Shown here: one piece after another, positions 529 to 21,022 of the stretch | Layout of the letters: the number at the start of each line of letters is the position of its first letter | Numbering within the stretch: position 1 is the first letter of the stretch | Source: Syncephalis plumigaleata | Lineage: Eukaryota > Zoopagomycota > Zoopagomycetes > Zoopagales > Piptocephalidaceae | Reading direction: 5' to 3' | Assembly: GCA_025201365.1 (NCBI GenBank) | Contig: JAIXMF010000246.1 | Span: 1 to 21,132 of the forward strand | DNA: 21,132 bases | Notes under the pieces: model-generated | Seen by the model: only the letters and a program-made list of their open reading frames with translations | What the model was told of the DNA's origin: nothing | Database searches by the model: none | Program-made: the position numbers and the translations under genes

Positions 529-1109
529 AAAATGCCCTCCTCCCCTATGATAGATGAACGAATCAATAAGTTGCGCGCTATTCATCTCTCTCTCCCTCCC
601 TCTTTCTTGCTTACTTACTTACTATGTTATATGGATTCTATTACTCTTCATATAACATCCATTACACTCGTTTCTCTCTTCTTTTACTTTGCATGTTTTT
701 TCTCAGTGTGTCTCCATCAATATTCATTCTTGTCGTTTACTCCTTCTCTTGATGTTGCAGTTGTTGCAGTCATGATGGTAATTGACGGGATGATCACACA
801 TCCATTAATCTCGTTATTATTATATAGTTTTTTATTACTGTTATTGTTATTACTATGACAACACTTGGATGTTTTTATCTATTGCTTTTATTTAACAAAA
901 AATGTTATGGTAATAATAACAGTAGTAATAATAAATAAATGAATAGAGAAATATACGTGGAATGTTGTTGCATAAATATTGGTCGTTGTGTGCTCTATGA
1001 TTGTTCATAGAACAAGAATAAAAGACAATATGAGCTGTATATTCAACAATGTAAGAACAGAAGGGCAAAAGTAAGCTTTATTCCTATTGACCAACAAATA
1101 ATCCATGTA
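529..1109. other. 3' UTRs of two convergent genes
   Basis: This non-coding stretch follows the TAA at 528. It holds T/C-rich and TTA-rich simple sequence and plus-strand AATAAA-like signals at about 929-938 and 1017-1022. On the minus strand AATAAA lies at 1082-1077, about 30 nt past the stop of the peptidase-like gene. I see no gene here; an open stretch at 532-858 is composed of T-rich simple sequence. Confidence 0.6.
1077..1082 (-). terminator. Poly(A) signal AATAAA of the peptidase-like gene
   Basis: AATAAA on the minus strand, about 30 nt past the TAA at 1110. The same hexamer in the same context is kept in the duplicated fragment near 4890. Confidence 0.6.
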
Positions 1110-3489
1110 TTAAGCAGAATTCAACGACTTGACTGCCTTTCCTAGCTTGCCAATAGCGTACGATAATTTAGTAGAAATCTGATCAAGGAATAAATCGCCT
1201 AGAATGACTTGTTAATATACAGCATACATATGCTACGTTGCAATTGCTTACTTTGATCGCTAGCATCACGCACTTCCATAACAATTGTACGTGGATCAGT
1301 ACTGCTCTTTGCACTTCGAGCAGTAGCAGCACGTAGTTTGGCCACCCATTTAGCAGTATCTATCGTAAGTGGTATTAGTTAGTGCGAGTTAATCAATAAA
1401 TGGATTGATCATACTTACCCCAGTATAGTGAATCCATTTCATCAGAATAACTAATCACGAGTATGTTGGGATATGCGACATTAGGCTTGATGTTCTCGTA
1501 TGGTGAATATGATCGAATAGTCTTATAATCATCCATTGATTCGGCTGGTTTACCCCATTGAGCAATATACACGCGATTGTCAGCATTTTTCTTGTCCATT
1601 GCTACGTCCAAGACATTCAAAAGTGGTACTATAATATTAAATTAGCACTCATCACTATTCAATGTATGATCTTTACACTTACTGTCGATAATGGCCACCT
1701 TGGCAATATCAGGTTGTCTATTGAGTGCAGCACCAATAATTGTAGAACCATCGTTATAACCTTCAACTACCATTAGATTATGACTGGTATACATCTCGGA
1801 TACCAACATATTGGTGGCAGACATGAAATCATCAATAAAAGCTTGATTATTATTGTGCACCGTGGCTATGTCATCTCCAGTCAACTCTGGATCTTCTGTT
1901 CTTCTGCTATGGGCGATTGCACAGACAAATCCACGATTGAGCAATGGTACAAGCTCTGCTTTGAAGTCAACTTCGAACATAGGAGTACCACCACCATTGC
2001 CCATTACCCAAGCAGGATTCTCACCATTCTTCTGCATTCCACGCTTATAGGCAATGGTAATAGGAACGTTGACTTGATTTCCCTTGCTATCTGGCTTGCC
2101 TTTAGCATAGATAAACTCGGTAACATAATCCGATTCATTATAGTCGGGTACTGGATCTACATATGTCTTCGTTGCCTTCTTTGTCGCCATGTTGTAGGAA
2201 TAGGTTGTTCGAGGTGTGATCAATGACGAGTACTCAAATGTGAGCGTATCACTGTTGTAATCGGCTACGCCTTTATTAGCTGCTTGATATGATTTAGCTG
2301 GGAACTCGATATTATGTGACTTTGCATTAGGCTGTAATCTTCTTTCGCTGTCATAGTCGTATACGGTGACTTGCTGAGGGACTGCAACGTCATTGAATAA
2401 TACAATATGATTTCGGAAGACGGCTATATCGCTAATCTCAAGCTTAGCGTTTTCCAGTACTCGCTTATGAGCACTTTTATCATTTATCTCGTCGATATCG
2501 CATACGTATGCCGTCTTCTTCTTGGTATCACCAGAAGTGATTACGAATAAGAACTGCTTGTTCAAATGGTATACCTCCAAAGCTGATCCAGGAGATAATG
2601 TTACTGGAATAGGCACCATTTTACTTGCAGTATCACTGGTGGCATCCAAATAAAAGTATTGTGTTTTACCATCTTTTTGATATACGTTTATGAAAAAGTA
2701 TTGATTGCTGCTGGATTTCTTTATGGTAATAAATTGTGCTTTTTGATCGGTATGAATGATGCTATCTTTATCTGCAGAAGTACCCATAGTGTGTCGCATT
2801 AGGCGAGGACCATCTCGACTATAAGTTGTGTATAGAATACTTTTTCCAGTGCCACTCCATTCGACCCAGTAACCAATGTTCTCAACCTTGTCTGGAAGTA
2901 ACTTTCCAGAAGTAAGATCCTTGAACTGCAAGCTGGATATCCGCTTAATGGAATCGTATGCCTTAAAAACAACTATGGTATGATTGCCGTTTGGCTTTAC
3001 ATCAAATACGCCTCTGGTTCCCTCAGGTAGTGTACTGGTATCCAATACAACTTCTTCGGGTGCATTCGCTTCGCCTATCTTCTTTCGATAGCAGACAGGA
3101 AATTTGGTATGAGGTTGCAGCTTAGAATAATAGCTGTAATTTCCAATATATCGAAATAATATTACATGAGATTGGCTTGTCGTTTTGACCAGTTCATTAC
3201 GAATCTGATCCTTAAGCTGCTGATCCTTGGCGAGCACTTGTTGAGCATAGACCTTCTCGGCATTGAGATACTCTTTCACATCCGTACTATCCTGGCCTTC
3301 ATCCTTTATCCACTGGTAAGGATCATCGATAACCTCGCCATGGTACTTGTGCTGGAATGGTTTCGTCTTGGCCACCGGTGCTTGTTCCGACTGAGCCCCT
3401 ACAAGTGCGTGTAATGGTACAGCCGATCCAATAAGTACTGCAAAGTAGGCAAGTGCTACAAACTTGCTTGTATTACGATAGCAAAGCAT
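1110..3489 (-). CDS. Secreted oligopeptidase B / prolyl-oligopeptidase-like protein (S9A family), predicted catalytically dead
   Basis: Four exons: 3489-1683, 1628-1419, 1359-1252 and 1198-1110 (TAA), with introns of 54, 59 and 53 nt that all have GTAAG donors. They give 737 residues, usual for the family plus a signal peptide. Residues 1-32 are a hydrophobic signal sequence. The S9 N-terminal motif follows (HKYHGEVIDDPYQWIKDEG, then a helix with YLNAEKVYAQQVLA), then a beta-propeller region and a C-terminal alpha/beta-hydrolase. Exon joins restore family text: SYSPYENIK, YPNILVISYSDEMDSLYW joined to DTAKWVAKLR. The nucleophile elbow, GGSAGG in active enzymes, reads GYNDG (Asn at about 579). 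The DAGH position of the catalytic His reads DASD. The oxyanion-side YGSYG and RGGGE motifs are also altered. Family assignment is firm. Loss of peptidase activity is inferred from the missing residues; a binding or decoy role is only possible. Confidence 0.88.
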
Positions 3490-5846: not shown

Positions 5847-5852
5847 TTTATT
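5847..5852 (-). terminator. Poly(A) signal AATAAA of the micro-exon gene
   Basis: AATAAA on the minus strand, about 175 nt past the TAG at 6025. It is a plausible 3' end for the micro-exon transcript. Confidence 0.5.
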
Positions 5853-6024
5853 CAATCAATGAACCAGCCATTATTTGATATTTATGTAATAGGACCATGG
5901 ATGAATAGACGGAAGGGACTTGTAGATATAGTTGTCGTTGCTGTACCAAGGAATAATGACTTGAATAGCATGGACACAAAAGGGTCTTGTACCAATACAT
6001 TCTTGACTTGAATACCTATAATAT

Positions 6025-9000
6025 CTACTTGATGATGTCCTCGTCTTGTTCTGTAGGCATAATGGATTAGTATGAGTATAATTATGGTGGATTATTACTT
6101 ACTGCTTAATGTTTCTTTCTGTAAAATAGAATAGTTCATATTGTCATTAATGCCTCATGCCTTATAAGAGTTGCATTAACTTACGGCTTATTATTCGTAA
6201 ACATACATAAACATGTGGTATATTATGATTAGTATCTTATATCTTATAATGCTTGTGTTAACTTACTTGCTATTATTCGTAAATATACGTGGATCGAATG
6301 ACGCATGTGATTAGCACGTCATCGATTACAATAATAATGTCAACTTACAACCTGTTTATACACGAATACATGTTGATCGAGTGACATATGCAATTAGTAT
6401 CTCATAGGGTGCAGTGAATGCGGTAACTTACGGGCTGTTATTCGTAAGGATGCATGAATCAAGTGACACATGTGATTAGTATCTCATAGGTGATTATCAA
6501 GATGGTAACTTACGCCCTGTTTACATAAGAATACGTGTTGATCAAGCGGCATACGTGATTAGTACCCCGTTCATTATGGTAAGAATAACGACTTACGATC
6601 TATTATACACAAACATATGTGATTAGTACAGCGTGCATTACAATAATAATATCAACTTACAGGCTGTTATTCGCAAGCATACGTGGATCGTGTGACATAT
6701 TACAGTTAATATTTCACGCATTACATCAATAGCAGTGTTAACTTACGTCCTATTTATACAGGAACATACATGGATCATGTGCCATATTGTGATTAATATC
6801 TCATAGGTTGCAATGATAAGTTAACTTACGGACTATCATACACAAACATATGTAATTAGTATAGCGTATATTGTAATAATGATGTCAACTTACAGGCTGT
6901 TATTCGCAAGCATACGTGGACCAAGCGTCATATTACAGTTAATATTCCACGCATTACATCAATAGCAGCATTAACTTACGCTCTATTTATACACAAGCAT
7001 AGGGTGAGTCGAATGCCATATTATGGTTAGTATTTTATAAGTTACAAACAGAATGGTAACTTACAATCTGTTATACAAAAGCATACGTGGATAGAGCGCG
7101 GCATTATGATTAGTACATCCTACCCTATAATAATCAGACTGCTCACTTACCCACTGGTATACACAGGCATACGTGGACCGAGTGGCATATGTAATTAGTA
7201 CTTTATCGATTACACTAGCAGTGTTAACTTACGCCCTATTTATACACGAATGCGTGGTGATCGAATGCCGTATGCAATTAGTATCTCATAAGTTACAAAC
7301 AGAACGATAACTTACGGGCTGTTATACACAAACATACGGCATATTGTTATTAGCATGACGAACATTACAATAATAAAGTAAGCTTACAGGTGTCTATAGG
7401 TAAGCATACGTGTACCGAGTGGCATATCGTGATTAGTGCCCCATAGACTACAAATAGAATGATAACTTACGCCCTGTTATATACAAGCATACATGGGTCG
7501 AGCGTCATTTACAGTTAGTATTGCGTGCATTACACCAATAGCAGTGTTGACTTACGTTCTATTTATACACGGGCATAGGATGAACCATATGGCATATGCA
7601 ATTAGTATATCATAGGTTATGAACAGAATGGAAACTTACACTCTATTATAAATGAGCGTACGTGGACCGAGTGGCATATCGTGATTAGTGCCTCATTCAT
7701 TACAATCGAAGCGGTAACTTACAAACTATCATACACAAATATAGATGAAGTGTATGTCATACGTAATTAGTACATTCATTCATTACGATCATAAATGTAA
7801 CTTACCATCTGTTATACAAAGCATACATGGACCGGATGCCACATCATCATTAGTACACCATAATTTATAACTGGAGTGCTAACTTACACACTGTTATACC
7901 GGGACATACATAAAGATCAAATGCCACATCATGATTAGTATGGCTTACATTGGATTGGAATGATTACTTACGCCCTATCATACAAGAACGTATGTGGATC
8001 GTGTGTCAAATTGTGGTTAGTATTTCGTTCATTACGATCAGAATAATGACTTACTTTCTATAATGCAGGAACGTATATGAACCATGTGCCACATTGTGAT
8101 CAGTACATTCATATATTACGGTTATAAATGACAACTTACGCCCTATCATACAAGAAATCATGTGCCACGTTACAATTAGTACATTCATTCACTACGGTCA
8201 GAATAATGACTTACGTTCTATCATACACAAATATACGTGGATCATGTGCCATATTGTGGTTAGTATTGAATACGCTGTAGTCAGAACGGTAACTTACTTC
8301 CTATTGTCCAGAAACATATATGGATTCATGTGCCAGATTACGATTAGTATACCGTAGATTGTAACCGAAATGTTAACTTACAAACTATCATACAGAAACA
8401 TATGTATGGGTTGTGTGTCATACCATAATTAGTACCTCGTTCATTCATTATGGCCAGAATGATTACTTACATGCTATCATACGAGAACGTATGTGGATCA
8501 TGTGGCATACTATCATTAGTACTCCATTCATTACAGTCAGAATGGTCACTTACCATCTATCATACAAGAACATACGTGGATCGTGTGCCATGCTGTGATT
8601 AGTACATTCATAGACCAAGATCAGAAATGATAGCCTACCTCCTATTGTGTACGAAGATATGTGGATCATGTGCCGTATTATAATTAGTACCTCATTCATT
8701 ACGGTCGGAATGATTACTTACATACTATCATACACAAACATATGTGGATTATGTGTCAATAATTTGGTTAGTACATCAGGTATTACTGTCAGAATGATTA
8801 CTTACAGTCTATCATAGAGGAACATATGTGGATCATGTGTCATATCATAATTAGTATCTCGTTCATTGCGGTCGGATTAATGACTTACTTTCTATCATAC
8901 AAGAACATATGTGAATTGTATGCCATAGTATGATTAGTACATTTATAGATTACGATCAGAAATGATAACTCACTCCCTATCATACACAGATATACGGAAA

Positions 9001-10066
9001 TAATGAGCCATAGCGTGGTTAGTACCTCATTCATTACAAACAGAATGATAACTTACATCCTACCATACAGGAACATACGTGGATAATGAGTCACATTGTT
9101 ATTAGTACATCGTACATAGGATTTGAATGATCACTTACTTTCTATTATACAAGAATATATGTGGATCATGTGTCATAGCGTGATTAGTGCATTCATAGAT
9201 TACGATAAAAAATGATCACTTACCCACTAGTATACACAAGCGTGTGTCAATCGTGTGCCATATTATAATTAGTACCTCGTTCATTCATTATGGCCAGAAT
9301 GATTACTTACATGCTATCATACGAGAACGTATGTGGATAATGAGCCACATTGGTATTAGTACCTCATTCATTACAGTAAGAATGATTACTCACGATCTAT
9401 TGTACATGAACGTATGTGGATCATGTGTCATACTGTGATTAGTACCCCATTTATCACGGTAAGAAAGGCAACTTACAGGCTGGTATACGGGGATGTATGC
9501 GAATCATATGACATATTATAGTCAGTATCTCATACGCTGTAGTCAGAATGTTAACTTACAGGCTAATATACAGGAATATACAGGATCATATGCCATACTA
9601 TGGTTAGTACGTCATTTATTGCCATCATAGTGATAACCTACGCACTGTGGTAGACAGGTATATGGGTTGTGTGACAGATTGCGGTTAGTAGTCGTACACT
9701 ACGATCAAAATGATAACTTACGGGTGCTTGAATGGCAGCACATACGATTTTGGTTTGTATTACAATTAGCATAGTGCTTATTATGGTCAATAGAATAGCT
9801 TACGTTCTTGAGCTAACAAATGAATAGATAGAATAAACATTATAGTGTGATTATCACGTCAAAACAATCATTTAATATACATGCGCTTACGAGCTATCGG
9901 TAATCATCGGTAGACAATGAAACAATAGACTACAATTAGTACATCAATTGATAGGGTCACGGCCAGACATACCACGACGATCCATGACGGGACTAGCTTC
10001 AACGGCAACCAGACTGGCGACAGCGACAACGGCGACGGCAATAGCGATGATGGTAGAGAACTTCAT
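6025..10066 (-). CDS. Micro-exon gene: 87-aa secreted precursor from ~49 exons, 41 of them exactly one in-phase codon
   Basis: Exon 1 is 10066-9973 (94 nt). Micro-exons, by lower coordinate, 3 nt unless stated: 9891, 9804, 9722 (5 nt), 9642, 9560, 9477, 9394, 9311, 9224, 9139, 9057, 8974, 8889, 8806, 8722, 8639, 8554, 8471, 8382, 8298, 8215, 8140, 8055, 7972, 7888, 7806, 7723, 7640, 7556, 7471, 7388 (6 nt), 7316, 7233, 7151, 7065, 6980, 6894, 6830, 6747, 6661, 6597, 6514, 6432, 6349, 6267, 6185 (2 nt), 6103 (2 nt). The last exon is 6050-6025, ending TAG. Every micro-exon lies between an AG and a GTAAGT-like donor, and nearly every intron has a TNCTRAY-type branch site about 40 nt before its acceptor. 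Phases close: 94 leaves 1, the 5-nt exon resets to 0, 2+2 restores 1, and the last exon needs 1. Residues 1-24 are a signal peptide (MKFSTIIAIAVAVVAVAS...) and R30-R31 look like a Kex2 site. Residues 36-51 read CPPIHWKDGKTYEMHF; there are two Cys (36, 57), a sequon N61-G-T, a Pro-rich stretch and a QDEDIIK end. Function unknown. The gene model is inferred, without transcript evidence. Confidence 0.85.
6597..7064 (-). repeat. Three-unit tandem duplication inside the array (233-bp offset)
   Basis: The block 6597-6831 repeats at 6830-7064. Exons at 6597, 6661 and 6747 lie exactly 233 bp from those at 6830, 6894 and 6980. By eye the intron of the central pair differs at about 8 of 83 sites and that of the next pair at about 7-8 of 61, so this is a recent duplication. 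Related three-unit modules seem to continue at 7151/7233 and 7471/7556, marked on the plus strand by a CTATTTATACA-like block. Confidence 0.75.
9265..9338 (-). repeat. 74-bp segment identical to 8425-8498 inside the array
   Basis: Positions 9265-9338 and 8425-8498 are base-for-base identical, 840 bp (10 units) apart, while the units around them differ. The segment includes the micro-exons at 9311 and 8471 (both CAT, His). It looks like a recent exchange, conversion or copy between units. Confidence 0.85.
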
Positions 10067-14254: not shown

Positions 14255-16630
14255 ATGACACAAACACCGTCTGCTTCAGCGTTCTCCAACGTTAAGGGAG
14301 CTCAGCCCACACCGGTATTCGACCCGGTAGCCCTGAACCATATCCTCGACCCGGATAACCGTGATAATCGGGAACGAGTCAAGAAATTCATTATCGAACA
14401 TAAAGAGCTGTACACGCCTCGTTTTGATATTCCATTGAACGAGGAGCGTGACCTAGCCTACAAACGTCTACGTTTGCTAGGTGAAGCCGGGTTTATTTCC
14501 GTGTTGGATTTTGAAACGAATCCACTCAACATCTTTGCAGGTAACTATAAATAATAATTGGTAGGCAGCATTTATTTATTTATTTGTTTATTAGTTCATG
14601 AGGTTGCCGGTCTCGTGGATGCTGGTATGGCCACGAAACTTACTGTTAATTTCAACTTGGTAAGAGACGTCAAATGTAATATAGTATAATATAATTAATA
14701 TATGTATATATGTATATAATAGTTCGGTGGCACGGTACTCAAGCTAGGCACGGAGCGTCATCGTCATTTAATTCCAAACATCGATACGCTTCATTCCACC
14801 GGTTGTTTTGGTTTAACAGAGCTGGGCTATGGCAACAATGCCATTGAAATGGAAACCACTGCCCATTACGATACGAAGACCAAGGAATTCATCATTCATA
14901 GTCCAACGACCAAGAGTCAGAAATACTGGATTACCAACGGTGCCGTTCATGCCAAATATTGTGTTGTCTTCGCACAATTGGAGATTAATGGAACACATGA
15001 AGGTAGGCTAGTTAGAATGATCATACGAATGATAACTTCAACGATATACATTAATTAATGCATTTCTATTTATTATATATGTGCGTGTATATATATTTAG
15101 GTATTCACGCTTTCTTGGTTCGTATTCGTAATGAGGATTTCAGCGTGTGTCCCGGTGTTACTATTCGTGATATGGGTCGTAAACACGAATTGGATGGTGT
15201 CGACAATGCATTGCTCTCCTTTGATCATGTTCGGTAAGCAAATTGATAACAATACACTATTAACAATGCTAATCTATGATATGTATATAGTATTCCACGC
15301 GAGAATCTATTGAATCGTTACTCAAATGTAGCTGAAGATGGTAGCTTCACCTCTACCATTAGTGGTCGTCGTGCAAGGTTCATCGTCGTGGCCGATCAAT
15401 TGCTTAGCGGTCGTCTATGCATTGCTGCCATGAACTTGTCAGCTGCTCGTATGGCGCTAGTCATTGCTCTACGTTATGCTGCCACTCGTCTTACCGTGGG
15501 TCCTAATGGTAAATCGGATACGCCAATTCTATCGTATCAATTGCAACAACGTGCGATTATTCCATTATTGGCACGCACCATTGCGCTTAATGTCGGATTG
15601 AACTACGTGAAACGAGTGTGGATGAATCCGGCCAGTCCACCCTCCGCAGTCATTCGTCTATGCTGCGTTATTAAACCGTTGATCACCTGGAATACCGAGC
15701 GTGTCGGCAGTGTTTGTCGTGAACGATGTGGCGGTCAAGGCTACTTGCGAGCATCGCGTCTATCCTCTGTCATTGGATTTGCTCATGCAGTAAGACAATA
15801 TCATTTATGACATGGTATATACTGTACTAATCAATCCTGTTTATCCTGTTGTTATTATTTAGGGTATCACGGCTGAAGGTGATAATTCCGTACTCATGCA
15901 AAAAGTTGCCAAAGAATTATTGGCTGATGTTCAAAAAGGTCTGGAGAAATTGCCAGAGATCAAACGATCCGGCACGCCCTCCACCTGGTCACTCGATGAC
16001 ATTGAATCGCTCTTGGACCTTATTCGTTTGCAATCGAACAGCCACGTTAAAGAGGTGAGTGTATTAATGATGGCAGATCAATTGAAATGGCAAACTAATA
16101 AAAAGGTGTTTTATTCCATTTAGCTTGGTAAGAAGATGGCCGATGGTAAAGCGCAGGGCAAGTCAATCTATCAAGTTTGGATGCTGGAGGCGTCCGAGCT
16201 GATCCAGGCCACCTCACGTCTCTACGGTGAACGTGTGTGCATGGAGCAATTCGTCTCGCTCATTCAGACAACACCCATCTCACCATTGCGGTAAGTTAGT
16301 TATGTCAGTTAGTTGCAATACGAATACTAATATGATATCAATAATGATACCATTAGTGACACACTCGTGGATATCGCTCGTATCTACGCGTTAGCCATCG
16401 TTGAACGGGATCTCGCTTGGTATCAGACTCATGGCTACATTACACCAGCCAATGGTGCTAAATTATCCGATCTACTATCCGATTACGTTAGACAATTGGC
16501 ACCACGTACACTTAACATTCTCGATGGATTTGCCATTCCAGACGAGCTTCTCTTTGCTCCCATCGCCTTGGATTGGGAACGTTACAATGAATACGACAAT
16601 CATGGTGAACTAGTAGGCAACAAGCTATAA
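14255..16630 (+). CDS. Acyl-CoA oxidase, peroxisomal beta-oxidation
   Basis: Eight exons: 14255-14540, 14595-14659, 14723-15002, 15101-15233, 15291-15789, 15863-16054, 16124-16290 and 16357-16630. Phases agree at every join, giving 631 residues, normal for the family. The FAD-dependent acyl-CoA oxidase pattern is clear: [13 protein letters not shown], then [14 protein letters not shown] (the flavin-binding CxxTE-like segment), [21 protein letters not shown], and the ACOX C-terminal domain with [11 protein letters not shown] and [20 protein letters not shown], the latter carrying the catalytic-base Glu region. The enzyme oxidises acyl-CoA to trans-2-enoyl-CoA with release of hydrogen peroxide. 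The protein ends in Asn-Lys-Leu, a non-canonical PTS1 that fits peroxisomal import. Introns are 54-98 nt. Its 3' end converges with the ZC3H3-like gene. Confidence 0.93.
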
Positions 16631-16798: not shown

Positions 16799-19025
16799 TC
16801 ACAACGAAATGAAATCGTTATCTTGTCTTTCTTCATTGTCATCATCTTCATCTTCATCACTACTTACTAAATCACTCATGTCAATATCTTGACCATCATC
16901 ATCATCATCATCATCATCATCGCCACTAATACTTGATATAGGTTGAGCGTTTAATGGGTCAACTTCATCATCAGAACTAATGAAATCAAGTATTTCCTGT
17001 TCTATTGACTGCTGCTGTGATGGTGATGATGCTACCGATTGATTATTTACTGGTTCATTGGTTGATGTCACTCGTTGCATTGCAGTGAAATCAGGTAGTA
17101 AACCAGCAACCGATACTGAAGGAATAATTGATGTGGCTGCTTTATCATTGTCACTGCTACTACTACCATTATTATTGTCGCTTGTTTGATTTACTTTCTC
17201 CGTAGCATTTGCCGTTTTCTGCGATTTCCTTAATAAACTGTGCGGTAGTGTGCAATAGGACAGGGTGCAATGTCCGTAAGTCGCGTAGAATGGACACAAG
17301 AGCAAATGTCGTTCATAGCAGTTATCGCCATTATCGCAGTAACCGTATCTAGCGAATAATCGACATACCGGTGCATTTGGATCGATTCGAATGTGAGCAA
17401 ATCTACACGTTGCTCGTCGACATTGTGCTATCTGGAAATGGATACAATGAGGTTGCTTCTCCGGTTGAATGGTATGCGACAAATGACAATTATCGCTAGT
17501 ACACTCGCCCGTCAATAATAGATTGGCGCATAATGCTACACGTGATGGATCGTGAATGTAACGACATCGTCCACATTTACGTTGTCTAGGACAACTTCCT
17601 AAATGATATCATATACATATATACATATATATAAATTTATACGTGTGTATTCTATAAACACAACTAGCATGCAACCTACCTAATCGATGATAATGACGAC
17701 AATACTTGAGACTATGATCCACATTACGAGATGGAATACTATAGTATAATGATGTTGTCTGTTAAATAAAACTATCCAGCGTAACAGCACATAAGAAGAA
17801 TGTCACTTACATGATAGAACCATTCGCATCCACCTTGACGCGAATTAGATTTCCTCGTTTCGTTCGTGTATAGGGAACACCGTCAATATTAACTATACGT
17901 GCTATCGGTTTTCGTTGATTTGATCTTAATTTCTTGACGGCATTCATCTTGAATACATTATCTAGACAAGATGTGCATCATTATATTACTCTACACTACT
18001 CGTTATGTTTATGTATAATGATAATTACCCAATGTATCGCTCTCTTTACGCTTTCGTACTAGTTTCCTACCACTTGAATTGGTAAAGAATGTAATACCAT
18101 CCACAACAATCTCACGTTGCTTAGGAGTTACTTTACGTAATGCTATACAAGTTGGTCAGCAACTATGATCATTATTCGTCTACTTTATAGCGCTATACAA
18201 ACCAGATGAGTTGCTGCCATTACTAGTGGATGCAAGTACAAGTTTGTTTCCGTTTTTATTCTTCTTGTACACGCCACCATTTTTAGTGTAATTATTGACT
18301 TGGTAATTTTAGCACTACTCGATACATGTAGTTTATTACAATTTTAATGACATGTTATCCATAAATAAACGATAATATATGAATGAATACCTACCTTTTC
18401 GGTTTAACATGCAATGTACGCGGCATACCACTACCACTGCCAATAGCAGTGTAGTAGCTGGCATTGGATTGTTTATAACGCTCGCCTTATCTAAATTGCT
18501 GTATATAATAAACAGATTCACCTTATACCGCAGGTCTTACCAATATCTGAACGAACAAGCTTATTGCCACGACGATATAACCAGTTGTTGTCGCTGCTGT
18601 ATTGTTACTAGATATGCTATCGGTATCTGCCGAGTCGTTTACTATTGCTGCACTATTGCTATCGCTGTTACTGGTATTGCTAGTCACTGGATGATTACCG
18701 TCCACCACCGTAGATGTTGAACGCTATGCTTATTGACCAGTGTCAAGTTACGTGAACCAGTAGGTCTTGCTGGTGGCATGCCACGTCCACGACCATAGGC
18801 TATCCTGCTAAATGCCCCTCTACTCCTAGCAGGTCTACCGCGAGCAGTATAAGAATGACCTGTCGAATAGCCTTGCTGTGTATCATTCTTGTAATGATTC
18901 TGAATAGCTCCTGATTATCATGGTATTATTAATCCTGTATCCTGATCATACGTGCAAGTTCACCCACCTGAAAGACGAGCAATCTCGTTCAACAAGGACT
19001 GTTGACTTGATTGCTGATTACTCAT
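16799..19025 (-). CDS. ZC3H3-like protein with five CCCH zinc fingers (middle exons uncertain)
   Basis: Secure 3' exons are 17598-16799 (stop), 17738-17680 and the chain upstream through about 17955-17811, 18087-18031 and 18148, with phases that agree. They encode KVTPKQREIVVDGITFF...SGRKLVRKRK, a basic VDGVPYTRTKRGNLIRV segment, then five fingers: one variant with C-x8-C-x8-C-x3-H spacing, and four of C-x7-8-C-x4-5-C-x3-H type (CANLLL..., CIHFQ..., CRLFARYGY..., CPFYATYGH...). A Ser/Asp/Gln-rich acidic tail includes nine Asp in a row. The 5' end starts at ATG 19025 (MSNQQSSQQSLLNEIARLSG), splices to an RG-rich part (ARGRPARSRGAF, YGRGRGM) and ends in RNLTLVNKHS. Between about 18715 and 18300 the frames that carry WLYRRGNKLVRSD and GGVYKKNKNGNKLV cannot be joined unambiguously. 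ZC3H3 relatives act in mRNA 3' processing and nuclear export; that role is inferred by homology. Confidence 0.75.
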
Positions 19026-19271: not shown

Positions 19272-21022
19272 TCAAACAAATGATACTGCAGTCATTTGGG
19301 ATTGCAGCTCTCTGTCGTGATAATCAGGTGGCATAGTCTCCGATAGATTGATTACAGGATGGCTGGAAAGATAGCGTAGATAAGTATCGAAGAACATTAA
19401 CGTTTCCACTTCGTCTTGAGCAGCGTGCAATACTTTTGCATCGAAATCCGATATATCCCCGTTAATCATTTCGAGAAGCATTCGTTGTTGCGAGTCAGAC
19501 AGATTAACCTGATGCTCTGATGTATCGAGTAGGAAAGTGTTGCGTAACCAAAATAAATACATACAAAGCCTTTCATTGTAATCGTCGAGTAAATGGTGCT
19601 CGCTAGGCATTGCTGGCTTCCTATCGGCATACTCTCGTATCTTTCGACAGGCATCGTAGAAAAGCATATTTTCAACGCTAAGATCCCTAACTGTAAACGC
19701 TTTGAACTAATTGTTATCCAATATCATTATGTTAATCGATAAAGAATGTACAATGCATGGGTAAATAAACAAATGGTTGCCTACCTGTTCGAATGCTAGC
19801 TTATCATTTAATAAGGCATGGAAGAATGCGCGCGATAGTGTGTTTTCACTAATACCCTGTGGATTAACTGTATCGCATGTGGCCAACGATTTATGGTTTT
19901 GCGTGGATAGTGTTTCCTTACGCAAATTACGACGAACTTGCTTCTGTTTGTATTTCTCTTGCAGTATACATGCAATCGGAAGAAATACACTGAAAACATT
20001 ATTCACGAATAGCACGACAAGCTGGTAGCATATGGGTGGGAAGGGTCCTTTGTTCGGTAGTAATAGGGAACCAGCGATATACGCCGTTAATCCTATCATC
20101 CAAGATACCCATAGCCACATAAGTTCGCGTTGAATACCGAACGTGTCATTGATGCCATGTAGGAAGTAAAAGAAAAAGGGAGCAAACAAGACGATGATAG
20201 TTATTTCTAATACCATTAGAGGATAGACTTCCCATTCAAACGGCATGCGCTGCTGTATTTGGCTGGTATTGCGCCCCCTTGAATGGTCGATGAAAGTAAA
20301 TGGACAATTAATGTTAATAAAATGAGCATACCCCCTATTACCACCATTATACGCCATAGCACGGATGTTTGCACCAAGTCACGATGTCTAAGAATCCACT
20401 GGGTAATGACGGACATTTTGGGAATTGGTTTTGGAAATAGCGGCGTGTGCGGATAAGGAGTCAACGGACTACAATGCTCCTCTTCTGCTTCTGCTTCTGC
20501 TTCTGCTTTTTCTTTTTCTTTAATGTCATAACTAGCTTGTACGCTACAGCTCGAATGACAGTTTGGCACACGCTGAATGACATTCTTGGATGCGCACTCG
20601 TCTCGGCAAAGAATGTTATACGTGCTATCCTCGGATTTATTGGAGATCAATTGCATTCCTAATACGCTCGCCTCGGCAATACGATAGAGCGCGACCAATC
20701 GCCATGCCCGACAGCAATTGGCGCACATGTAGAGCGGTGTCACTACCATTGGTATCCATAACTGTGTCCAGCACGGTATTGTTCCGGGTAGTATCATTCT
20801 TATGCTGTTGTAAAAAGCTAATATCATTCCCATGATTGCGGCGAATATGGTTAGGCACGGCGTTCTAAACCGGATCATCGGATGGCGTCGTAGATAACTG
20901 AATAGAACGATACAGAATATGCCGCTACCTATGAAGAAACTACACAAAATGCTATAAGTAATGGTGACCGGGATTTCCATCGCCTCCCATTCTTCGCGAG
21001 TTTGCTGCGATTGTCGACCCAT
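19272..21022 (-). CDS. Seven-transmembrane receptor with C-terminal RGS domain (frame break near TM4)
   Basis: The start MGRQSQQTREEWEAME is at 21022. Hydrophobic spans: TM1 VTITYSILCSFFIGSGIF, TM2 TPCLTIFAAIMGMILAF, TM3 LWIPMVVTPLYMCANCC, a long cytoplasmic loop with a Lys/Glu/Ala-Glu run, TM4 IMVVIGGMLILLTLIVHLL, TM5 PLMVLEITIIVLFAPFFFYF, TM6 WLWVSWMIGLTAYIAG, TM7 YQLVVLFVNNVFSVFLPIACI. An exon join (19785 to 19706, 78-nt intron, phase 0) restores LAFEQFKAFTVRDLSVENMLFYDACR, the core of an RGS domain, which runs to the stop at 19272. RGS domains speed GTP hydrolysis by G-alpha, so the protein likely both senses a signal and dampens it, like fungal GPCR-RGS proteins. TM4 and TM5 lie in different frames: near 20285-20300, beside a GGGGG run, one base appears missing, or an 89-nt intron removes TM4. 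So it may be a pseudogene, a sequence error or an unusual splice form. Confidence 0.8.

Follow-up and report, generated by a model that had tools for sequence, protein, structure and literature searches.

The window analysed here, a stretch of 21,132 nucleotides from the fungus Syncephalis plumigaleata (contig C164 of the assembly searched, which comprises 32.6 Mb in 383 contigs), carries on its minus strand, from 10066 to 6050, an array of 48 introns of 52–86 nt between 49 exons. Exactly 3 nt is the length of 42 of the 47 internal exons, the others having 9, 5, 6, 2 and 16 nt. When the minus strand of 10066–6025 was read and searched, AG-N-GT micro-exon candidates were found to run from 9895 down to 6106, and TRF reports positions 7958–9477 of the array as a tandem repeat with a period of 83. 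The features of the window, as modelled, are given below.

9973–10066, minus strand: exon 1 (94 nt, phase 1 at its end), with ATG and a hydrophobic leader, MKFSTIIAIAVAVVAVASLVAVEASPVMDRR
9891–9893, minus strand: exon 2, CTC, 3 nt, phase 1
9804–9812, minus strand: exon 3, CTCAAGAAC, 9 nt; first AG after the branch site taken
9722–9726, minus strand: exon 4, CACCC, 5 nt; shifts phase 1 to phase 0
6267–9644, minus strand: exons 5–46 and their introns; all single codons in phase 0 (41) except a 6-nt exon (7393–7388)
6185–6186, minus strand: exon 47, CC, 2 nt; compensates the 16-nt penultimate exon
6103–6118, minus strand: exon 48 (penultimate), 16 nt; likely stop TAA at 6108–6106
5847–6050, minus strand: last exon and 3' UTR, to AATAAA (5852–5847) as putative 3' end
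6051–9972, minus strand: the 48 introns and enclosed micro-exons; introns 52–86 nt, mean 78
1642–3489, minus strand: neighbouring prolyl oligopeptidase
15310–15810, plus strand: neighbouring piece of an acyl-CoA oxidase
16799–17515, minus strand: neighbouring CCCH zinc finger, weak match
19272–21022, minus strand: neighbour with weak 7tm_3 and RGS matches, below cut-offs

This exon table agrees with the first-pass annotation on the location of the array, its strand and its 49 exons, and amends it elsewhere: 42 rather than 43 exons are of 3 nt; exon 3, previously read as a 3-nt AAC, becomes the 9-nt CTCAAGAAC when the first AG after the branch site is used; the penultimate exon has 16 nt instead of being a 2-nt CA; and the predicted protein has 84 residues, not 87. 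The stop had been placed at a TAG in the last exon, an end point that one alternative weight setting still yields; the TAA at 6108–6106 is the most likely stop. Given that TAA in the penultimate exon, the last exon of the window gene is likely to be 3' UTR, and in intronless paralogues the last-exon sequence comes after the stop. No in-frame stop interrupts exons 5–46. The signal peptide and dibasic RR site of exon 1 were judged by eye. Intronless paralogues such as L044 and L048, with RRAPQ, have exon 2 contiguous with the adjoining exons, and exon 3 is comparable to CGTCGTGCCCCTCAAGAG in the intronless L044. Exon 47 is included in the main models, skipped under one alternative weight setting, and also present in a near-copy of the gene (L013).

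A dispersed family and its intronless paralogues

The cassette pattern (TACTAAY N10–40 NAG NNN GTAAGT) has 746+660 matches in the genome and its reversed form 22+18; a difference of this size for TACTAAY..NAGNNNGTAAGT excludes a chance origin of the array. Copies of intron 1 were found 96 times at three mismatches or fewer, and the start of the last exon 181 times at the same threshold (controls, 0 each), while for exon 1 there are at least 150 homologues (of 180 candidates, 150 were scored, and each of these is among the matches listed)—counts that include near-duplicate contigs in all three cases. The window gene is one member of a large dispersed family, whose proteins are small and look secreted. 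Neither the window protein, searched against Pfam, nor the mature parts, searched against known families and structures, gave anything near a cut-off. Four genomic matches above the cut-off were obtained for PF08407, a chitin synthase domain of fungi.

Introns were placed by dynamic programming in which donor, branch site and acceptor were weighted and any AG passed after the branch site was penalised; the end was anchored on the last exon of the family where found, and the procedure was blind to reading frame. Two earlier model sets were discarded, since their chains had been broken by thresholds or by a later AG, and a set built with trained weights was put aside because it skipped units, its result for the window being kept as a rival. 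Models were attempted for 31 genes (the window, L011–L029, with two genes in L014, and L051–L060). Near-copies form five groups (window/L013, L012/L021, L026/L027, L023/L024/L025 and L016/L017), whose members differ at 0–2% of intron positions; between the window and L013, 60 of the 3038 positions in introns are different, as are 2 of the 148 in micro-exons and none of the 96 in AG. Leaving out six near-copies (L013, L017, L021, L024, L025 and L027) leaves 25 distinct genes, 24 of them with the last exon in the fetched stretch; L051 runs off it. In 24 of the 25, the array is bounded by the family's first exon on one side and its last on the other.

The window contig resembles a second haplotype of part of C362 (L013, C362:252796-262496), with introns about 2% different. 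As a separate observation, L017 (C35:103121-112821) has about 2.2 kb more than L016 inside the array, at ~1063–3242, with AATAGT at both ends, and this extra segment looks like a mobile-element insertion.

The frame closes in 19 of the 24 complete models: 17 in the main run, and L019 and L020 in another run only. All 18 closing models other than that of the window have their stop within the penultimate exon or at its end. In 16 of the 19, a TAA shortly before the end of the penultimate exon serves as the stop (TAAGCA, TAAGCG, TAAACA or TAAATG); L054 stops one codon earlier, L012 has a TGA in the penultimate exon and L020 a TGA spanning the last junction. The five that do not close are L011 and L018, without an AG before exon 4; L022, with a TAA in exon 3 when the first AG is taken; and L014b and L053, with a 2-nt exon in mid-array. 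Five of the near-copies left out close like their partners, the exception being L017, with its insertion. Of the 25 distinct models, 23 have 5 or 2 nt in the first internal exon whose length is not a multiple of three, so that this adaptor turns the phase 1 of exon 1 into phase 0. Exon length varies beyond this: L019 (C113:154003-163703) has 9- and 12-nt exons in its first half, a 5-nt adaptor, and single codons in its second half. The longest array seen, in L051 (C223:612800-618150), has at least 61 exons and continues beyond the fetched stretch; its second half contains many 6-nt exons, e.g., ACACCT and AGACGT.

Among 20 short loci fetched for open frames, 15 have the leader without the intron chain; the other five are L042 and L049, without a recognisable start, and L031, L039 and L043, still with introns. 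The last-exon sequence is contained in 13 of the 20. TTAAGCA in L036 is joined to AGCAAGACGAGG, and TTAAGCG in L038 to GACAAGACAAGG—in each case the spliced form of the last junction. Moreover, the 28-nt string CGTCGTG CTG TTG TCGAAC GCC GTG CTC, which six introns divide in L056 and L057, is contiguous at 13 other places, four of them exact and the rest with one to three mismatches (control, 0). Three of the intronless copies (L036, L038 and L040) are out of frame. Whether they are retrocopies or ancestral, these paralogues confirm the intron positions predicted by the models, including those around 3-nt exons. Homology in the 3' flank often stops near one place, which holds also for two micro-exon genes. 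No contiguous copy of the window's mature peptide was found in the genome, and a search by a pattern of three codons found no parent array for the intronless L038. One further intronless paralogue, at 301–510 of L030 (C1:2770087-2779787), would encode a glycine-rich repeat peptide, with a TGA arising at the join to the last-exon sequence.

Coding tests on the triplets

The first-pass annotation had noted AG-NNN-GTAAGT units and the lack of stops in the in-phase micro-exons, and both observations extend to the family. Measured over 548 units (22 genes), the exon holds 0.01, 0.06 and 0.10 bits at its three positions, the flanking AG holds 2.00 and 2.00, and the six donor positions hold 2.00, 1.93, 1.85, 1.50, 1.93 and 1.65; with 0.01–0.10 bits in the exon against about 2 in AG and GT, the codon offers the spliceosome almost nothing readable. 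In the 1406 genome-wide AG-NNN-GTAAGT matches, NNN is never TAA, TAG or TGA outside one simple repeat, while TGG occurs 39 times. A search with TRR at the place of the exon gave 42 matches (3 in a (TAAG)n repeat, 39 TGG and 0 stops; reversed control, 21), RRT gave 115 (control, 2) and TRY 116 (control, 0); six of about 100 TRY sites among the matches listed belong to a different dispersed repeat. This other repeat, of the form TACTAAC..CACTAG-TAT-GTAAGT or similar and of a cassette type that differs from that of the micro-exon family, lies at C27:18331, C68:485193, C223:470538, C223:1350240, C337:22703 and C340:754819.

When, for each of the 25 distinct genes, all exons of 3 or 6 nt downstream of the adaptor were joined, 598 codons resulted, 556 of them from single-codon exons; other exon lengths are omitted from this set, which accordingly contains neither the exon-3 stop of L022 nor the 2-nt exon of L053. 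Stops number 0, 4 and 64 in frames 0, 1 and 2; given how the three columns are composed, frame 0 should hold 21. Codon identity is also retained between genes: when each of 548 units (22 genes) was compared with the unit of a different gene whose intron is closest in sequence, the amino acid agreed in 113 cases, with 30.9 expected and a maximum of 56 in 2000 shuffles. Cysteine dominates these matches (35/36, with 2.4 expected), followed by proline (22/49) and tryptophan (13/35), and Ser, Asn, Gln, Arg, Thr and Phe pooled give 0/127. Read by eye from the list, 32 of 36 cysteine matches retain their rank in the protein (first, pair or last). A C..CC..C arrangement is present in eight of the 25 models (L015, L028, L051–L055, with L053 taken without its 2-nt exon, and L058); the window protein has two cysteines only, the first one and one matching the pair.

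Synonymous choice in the triplets follows that of 11 intronless paralogues in their mature parts (Spearman 0.69 over 55 codons) and, weakly, in their leaders (Spearman 0.28, p 0.06), and is uncorrelated with five window ORFs (rho −0.04); the intronless reference was tried only after the five-ORF comparison. Taken as sequence evidence, these results support a coding constraint on the triplets as well as the splicing and translation of the arrays. The earlier claim that the protein is assembled at about one codon per exon is supported by stop avoidance, closure in 19 of 24 models, contiguous paralogues, conserved cysteine codons and codon usage.

Proposed splicing, rival readings and possible cassette evolution

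The window very probably contains a protein gene with its leader in one exon and its mature part built from tandem cassettes, each an intron of about 80 nt and a codon, spliced by intron definition. What the computation shows is the anatomy of the cassettes, the avoidance of stops, closure of the frame in most models, the conservation of cysteines and the contiguity of junctions in paralogues. The course of splicing proposed is as follows. The spliceosome would excise each intron by intron definition, using the strong GTAAGT and the TACTAAY, whose branch A lies most commonly 43 nt before the exon, and the single codons would end up joined in phase 0. The 5-nt exon would fix the phase, the stop of the penultimate exon would close the frame, and the last exon would serve as 3' UTR. 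Removal is probably sequential, because two spliceosomes are unlikely to flank 3 nt simultaneously; each spliced codon would then become the new end of a growing upstream exon. Between branch site and acceptor, we counted 9 AG against 886 GA, a ratio that carries no evidential weight since the models penalise such AGs. No conserved hairpin between branch site and AG was detected in 330 segments (300 in RNAalifold), and the mean minimum free energy of 150 such segments is −4.8, against −3.8 for shuffles. The array gene is presumably transcribed. The leader and the cysteines further suggest a protein that is secreted, cleaved after RR by a Kex2-type protease and effector- or antimicrobial-like in its role.

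Several other readings were weighed against this one. Strong splice signals around a 3-nt step can be pictured as recursive splicing, in which a single long intron spans the array and is removed at once or stepwise and the AG-NNN-GTAAGT units, which look like ratchet points, leave nothing in the mRNA; exons of 3 nt are, moreover, hard to define. Ratchet points, however, need no stop avoidance, yet stops are 0 of 598 in frame 0 against 64 in frame 2, and 0 genome-wide; the cysteine codons are retained between genes, and the 3-nt exons are contiguous in paralogues. We consider this reading very improbable, and recursive splicing without inclusion was rejected given that stop avoidance, codon usage and cysteine conservation show constraint on the triplets. 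Even less can be said for a non-coding satellite or dispersed tandem repeat with chance splice-like motifs: a tandem array of period 83 is what it would produce, but AG, GT and branch site are near invariant around a near-random triplet in which stops are avoided, and family exons flank the array on both sides in 24 of 25 distinct models. Near-invariant splice signals, stop avoidance and these flanking exons led us to reject a satellite origin, which is scarcely credible.

Two further readings accept codon-by-codon splicing in the family. The window gene itself could be a decayed or silent copy, the family being spliced in this manner now or formerly; several members fail to close and some paralogues (L038 and L040) are out of frame, as decay would predict. 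Against it, the frame of the window closes, and the window and L013 retain frame and splice sites while differing at 60 of 3038 intron positions, so that decay appears decidedly unlikely. Skipping of the CC exon in an otherwise identical gene is possible, if unlikely: trained weights omit CC from L013 as well as from the window, the acceptor ahead of CC (AATAAG) is weak, and the frame would then end at the TAG of the last exon, giving a protein ...VQKETLSKQDEDIIK. With CC included, by contrast, the stop falls in the penultimate exon, as in the 18 other closing models.

The arrays of the family would most likely gain or lose whole cassettes by copying, one residue per step, because the units are similar and near-identical GGT cassettes run in series. 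Runs of the latter kind, at C1:1383464-1384077 and C1:1610283-1610827, appear as if glycine stretches had grown through recent cassette copying. Adjacent units are barely more similar than distant ones (0.712 vs 0.704), which points to copying that is mostly old or non-local, recent local duplication not being general. Unit pairs with 90–95% flank identity have 61% of exon letters in common; these 24 pairs, few and non-independent, give a hint that codons may evolve faster than introns. Whether proteins of this family evolve with the intron-codon cassette as their unit—homologous introns being copied, the codons between them diverging faster and cysteine codons being retained—we regard as an evenly balanced question. 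Nearly all cassettes have 3 nt and phase 0, so that skipping or duplicating one alters exactly one residue without a frameshift, and if cassettes do act as such units, many isoforms could also arise from one gene.

Comparison with known micro-exon systems

If the proposed splicing is true, the gene would be an extreme in how many single-codon exons follow one another, in a fungus whose splice signals look ordinary, and a natural system for how the spliceosome orders dozens of introns around exons that are nearly free of information. Secreted proteins would be made and varied residue by residue, a new route for protein growth. Standard gene finders and short-read aligners would overlook such genes, and similar families may hide in other genomes. 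The first-pass annotation knew of no described gene with dozens of consecutive single-codon exons, and our search of the open literature likewise found, among the papers listed, neither such a gene nor a fungal micro-exon gene family.

Introner elements are many similar introns within one genome; the similar introns described here differ in standing head to tail in one gene family, with one codon between them. Isolated tiny exons form another point of reference: Drosophila hth reportedly has a 3-bp exon, and Trichoderma is said to have a microexon. Exons of 1 nt are described in Arabidopsis APC11 and Fusarium CYP621A (PMC4674806, PMC12940212), and plant microexons span 1–15 nt (PMC12409088). 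As these sources present them, such cases agree with ours in that exons of 1–3 nt can be included by splicing, in fungi among others, and differ in that there is one per gene, whereas the window gene has dozens consecutively.

The first-pass annotation had named schistosome micro-exon genes and aphid bicycle genes as the nearest designs, of which the former comparison holds on structure and the latter fails on phase. Aphid bicycle genes, a large family of putative effectors with many micro-exons, have about 17 exons per gene on average, and a megacycle gene has more than 100 micro-exons (PMC9168663). Likeness lies in the large family of putative effectors rich in micro-exons; by that description, however, their internal exons are almost all in phase 2, while here they are in phase 0 with one codon each, and by exon phase the window gene is not a bicycle gene. 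The micro-exon genes of schistosomes and tapeworms have small, secreted, fast-changing products (PMC4350168, PMC7653826, PMC5825161), and, in these accounts, series of tiny exons with lengths divisible by three likewise make up most of their coding regions, with which gene finders struggle. The structural definition, as worded in PMC7653826, asks for at least seven exons, and the window gene has 49; the test for micro-exon genes counts 44 of these 49 (42 of 3 nt, one of 6 and one of 9), with 42 in a row in exons 5–46. By this definition, the window gene is a micro-exon gene. What sets it apart from those genes, as they are described, is that single codons, lying between homologous introns, make up 42 of its 47 internal exons, that it belongs to a fungus and that its leader is different; exon length, phase and the intron-codon cassette distinguish the window gene from known micro-exon genes.
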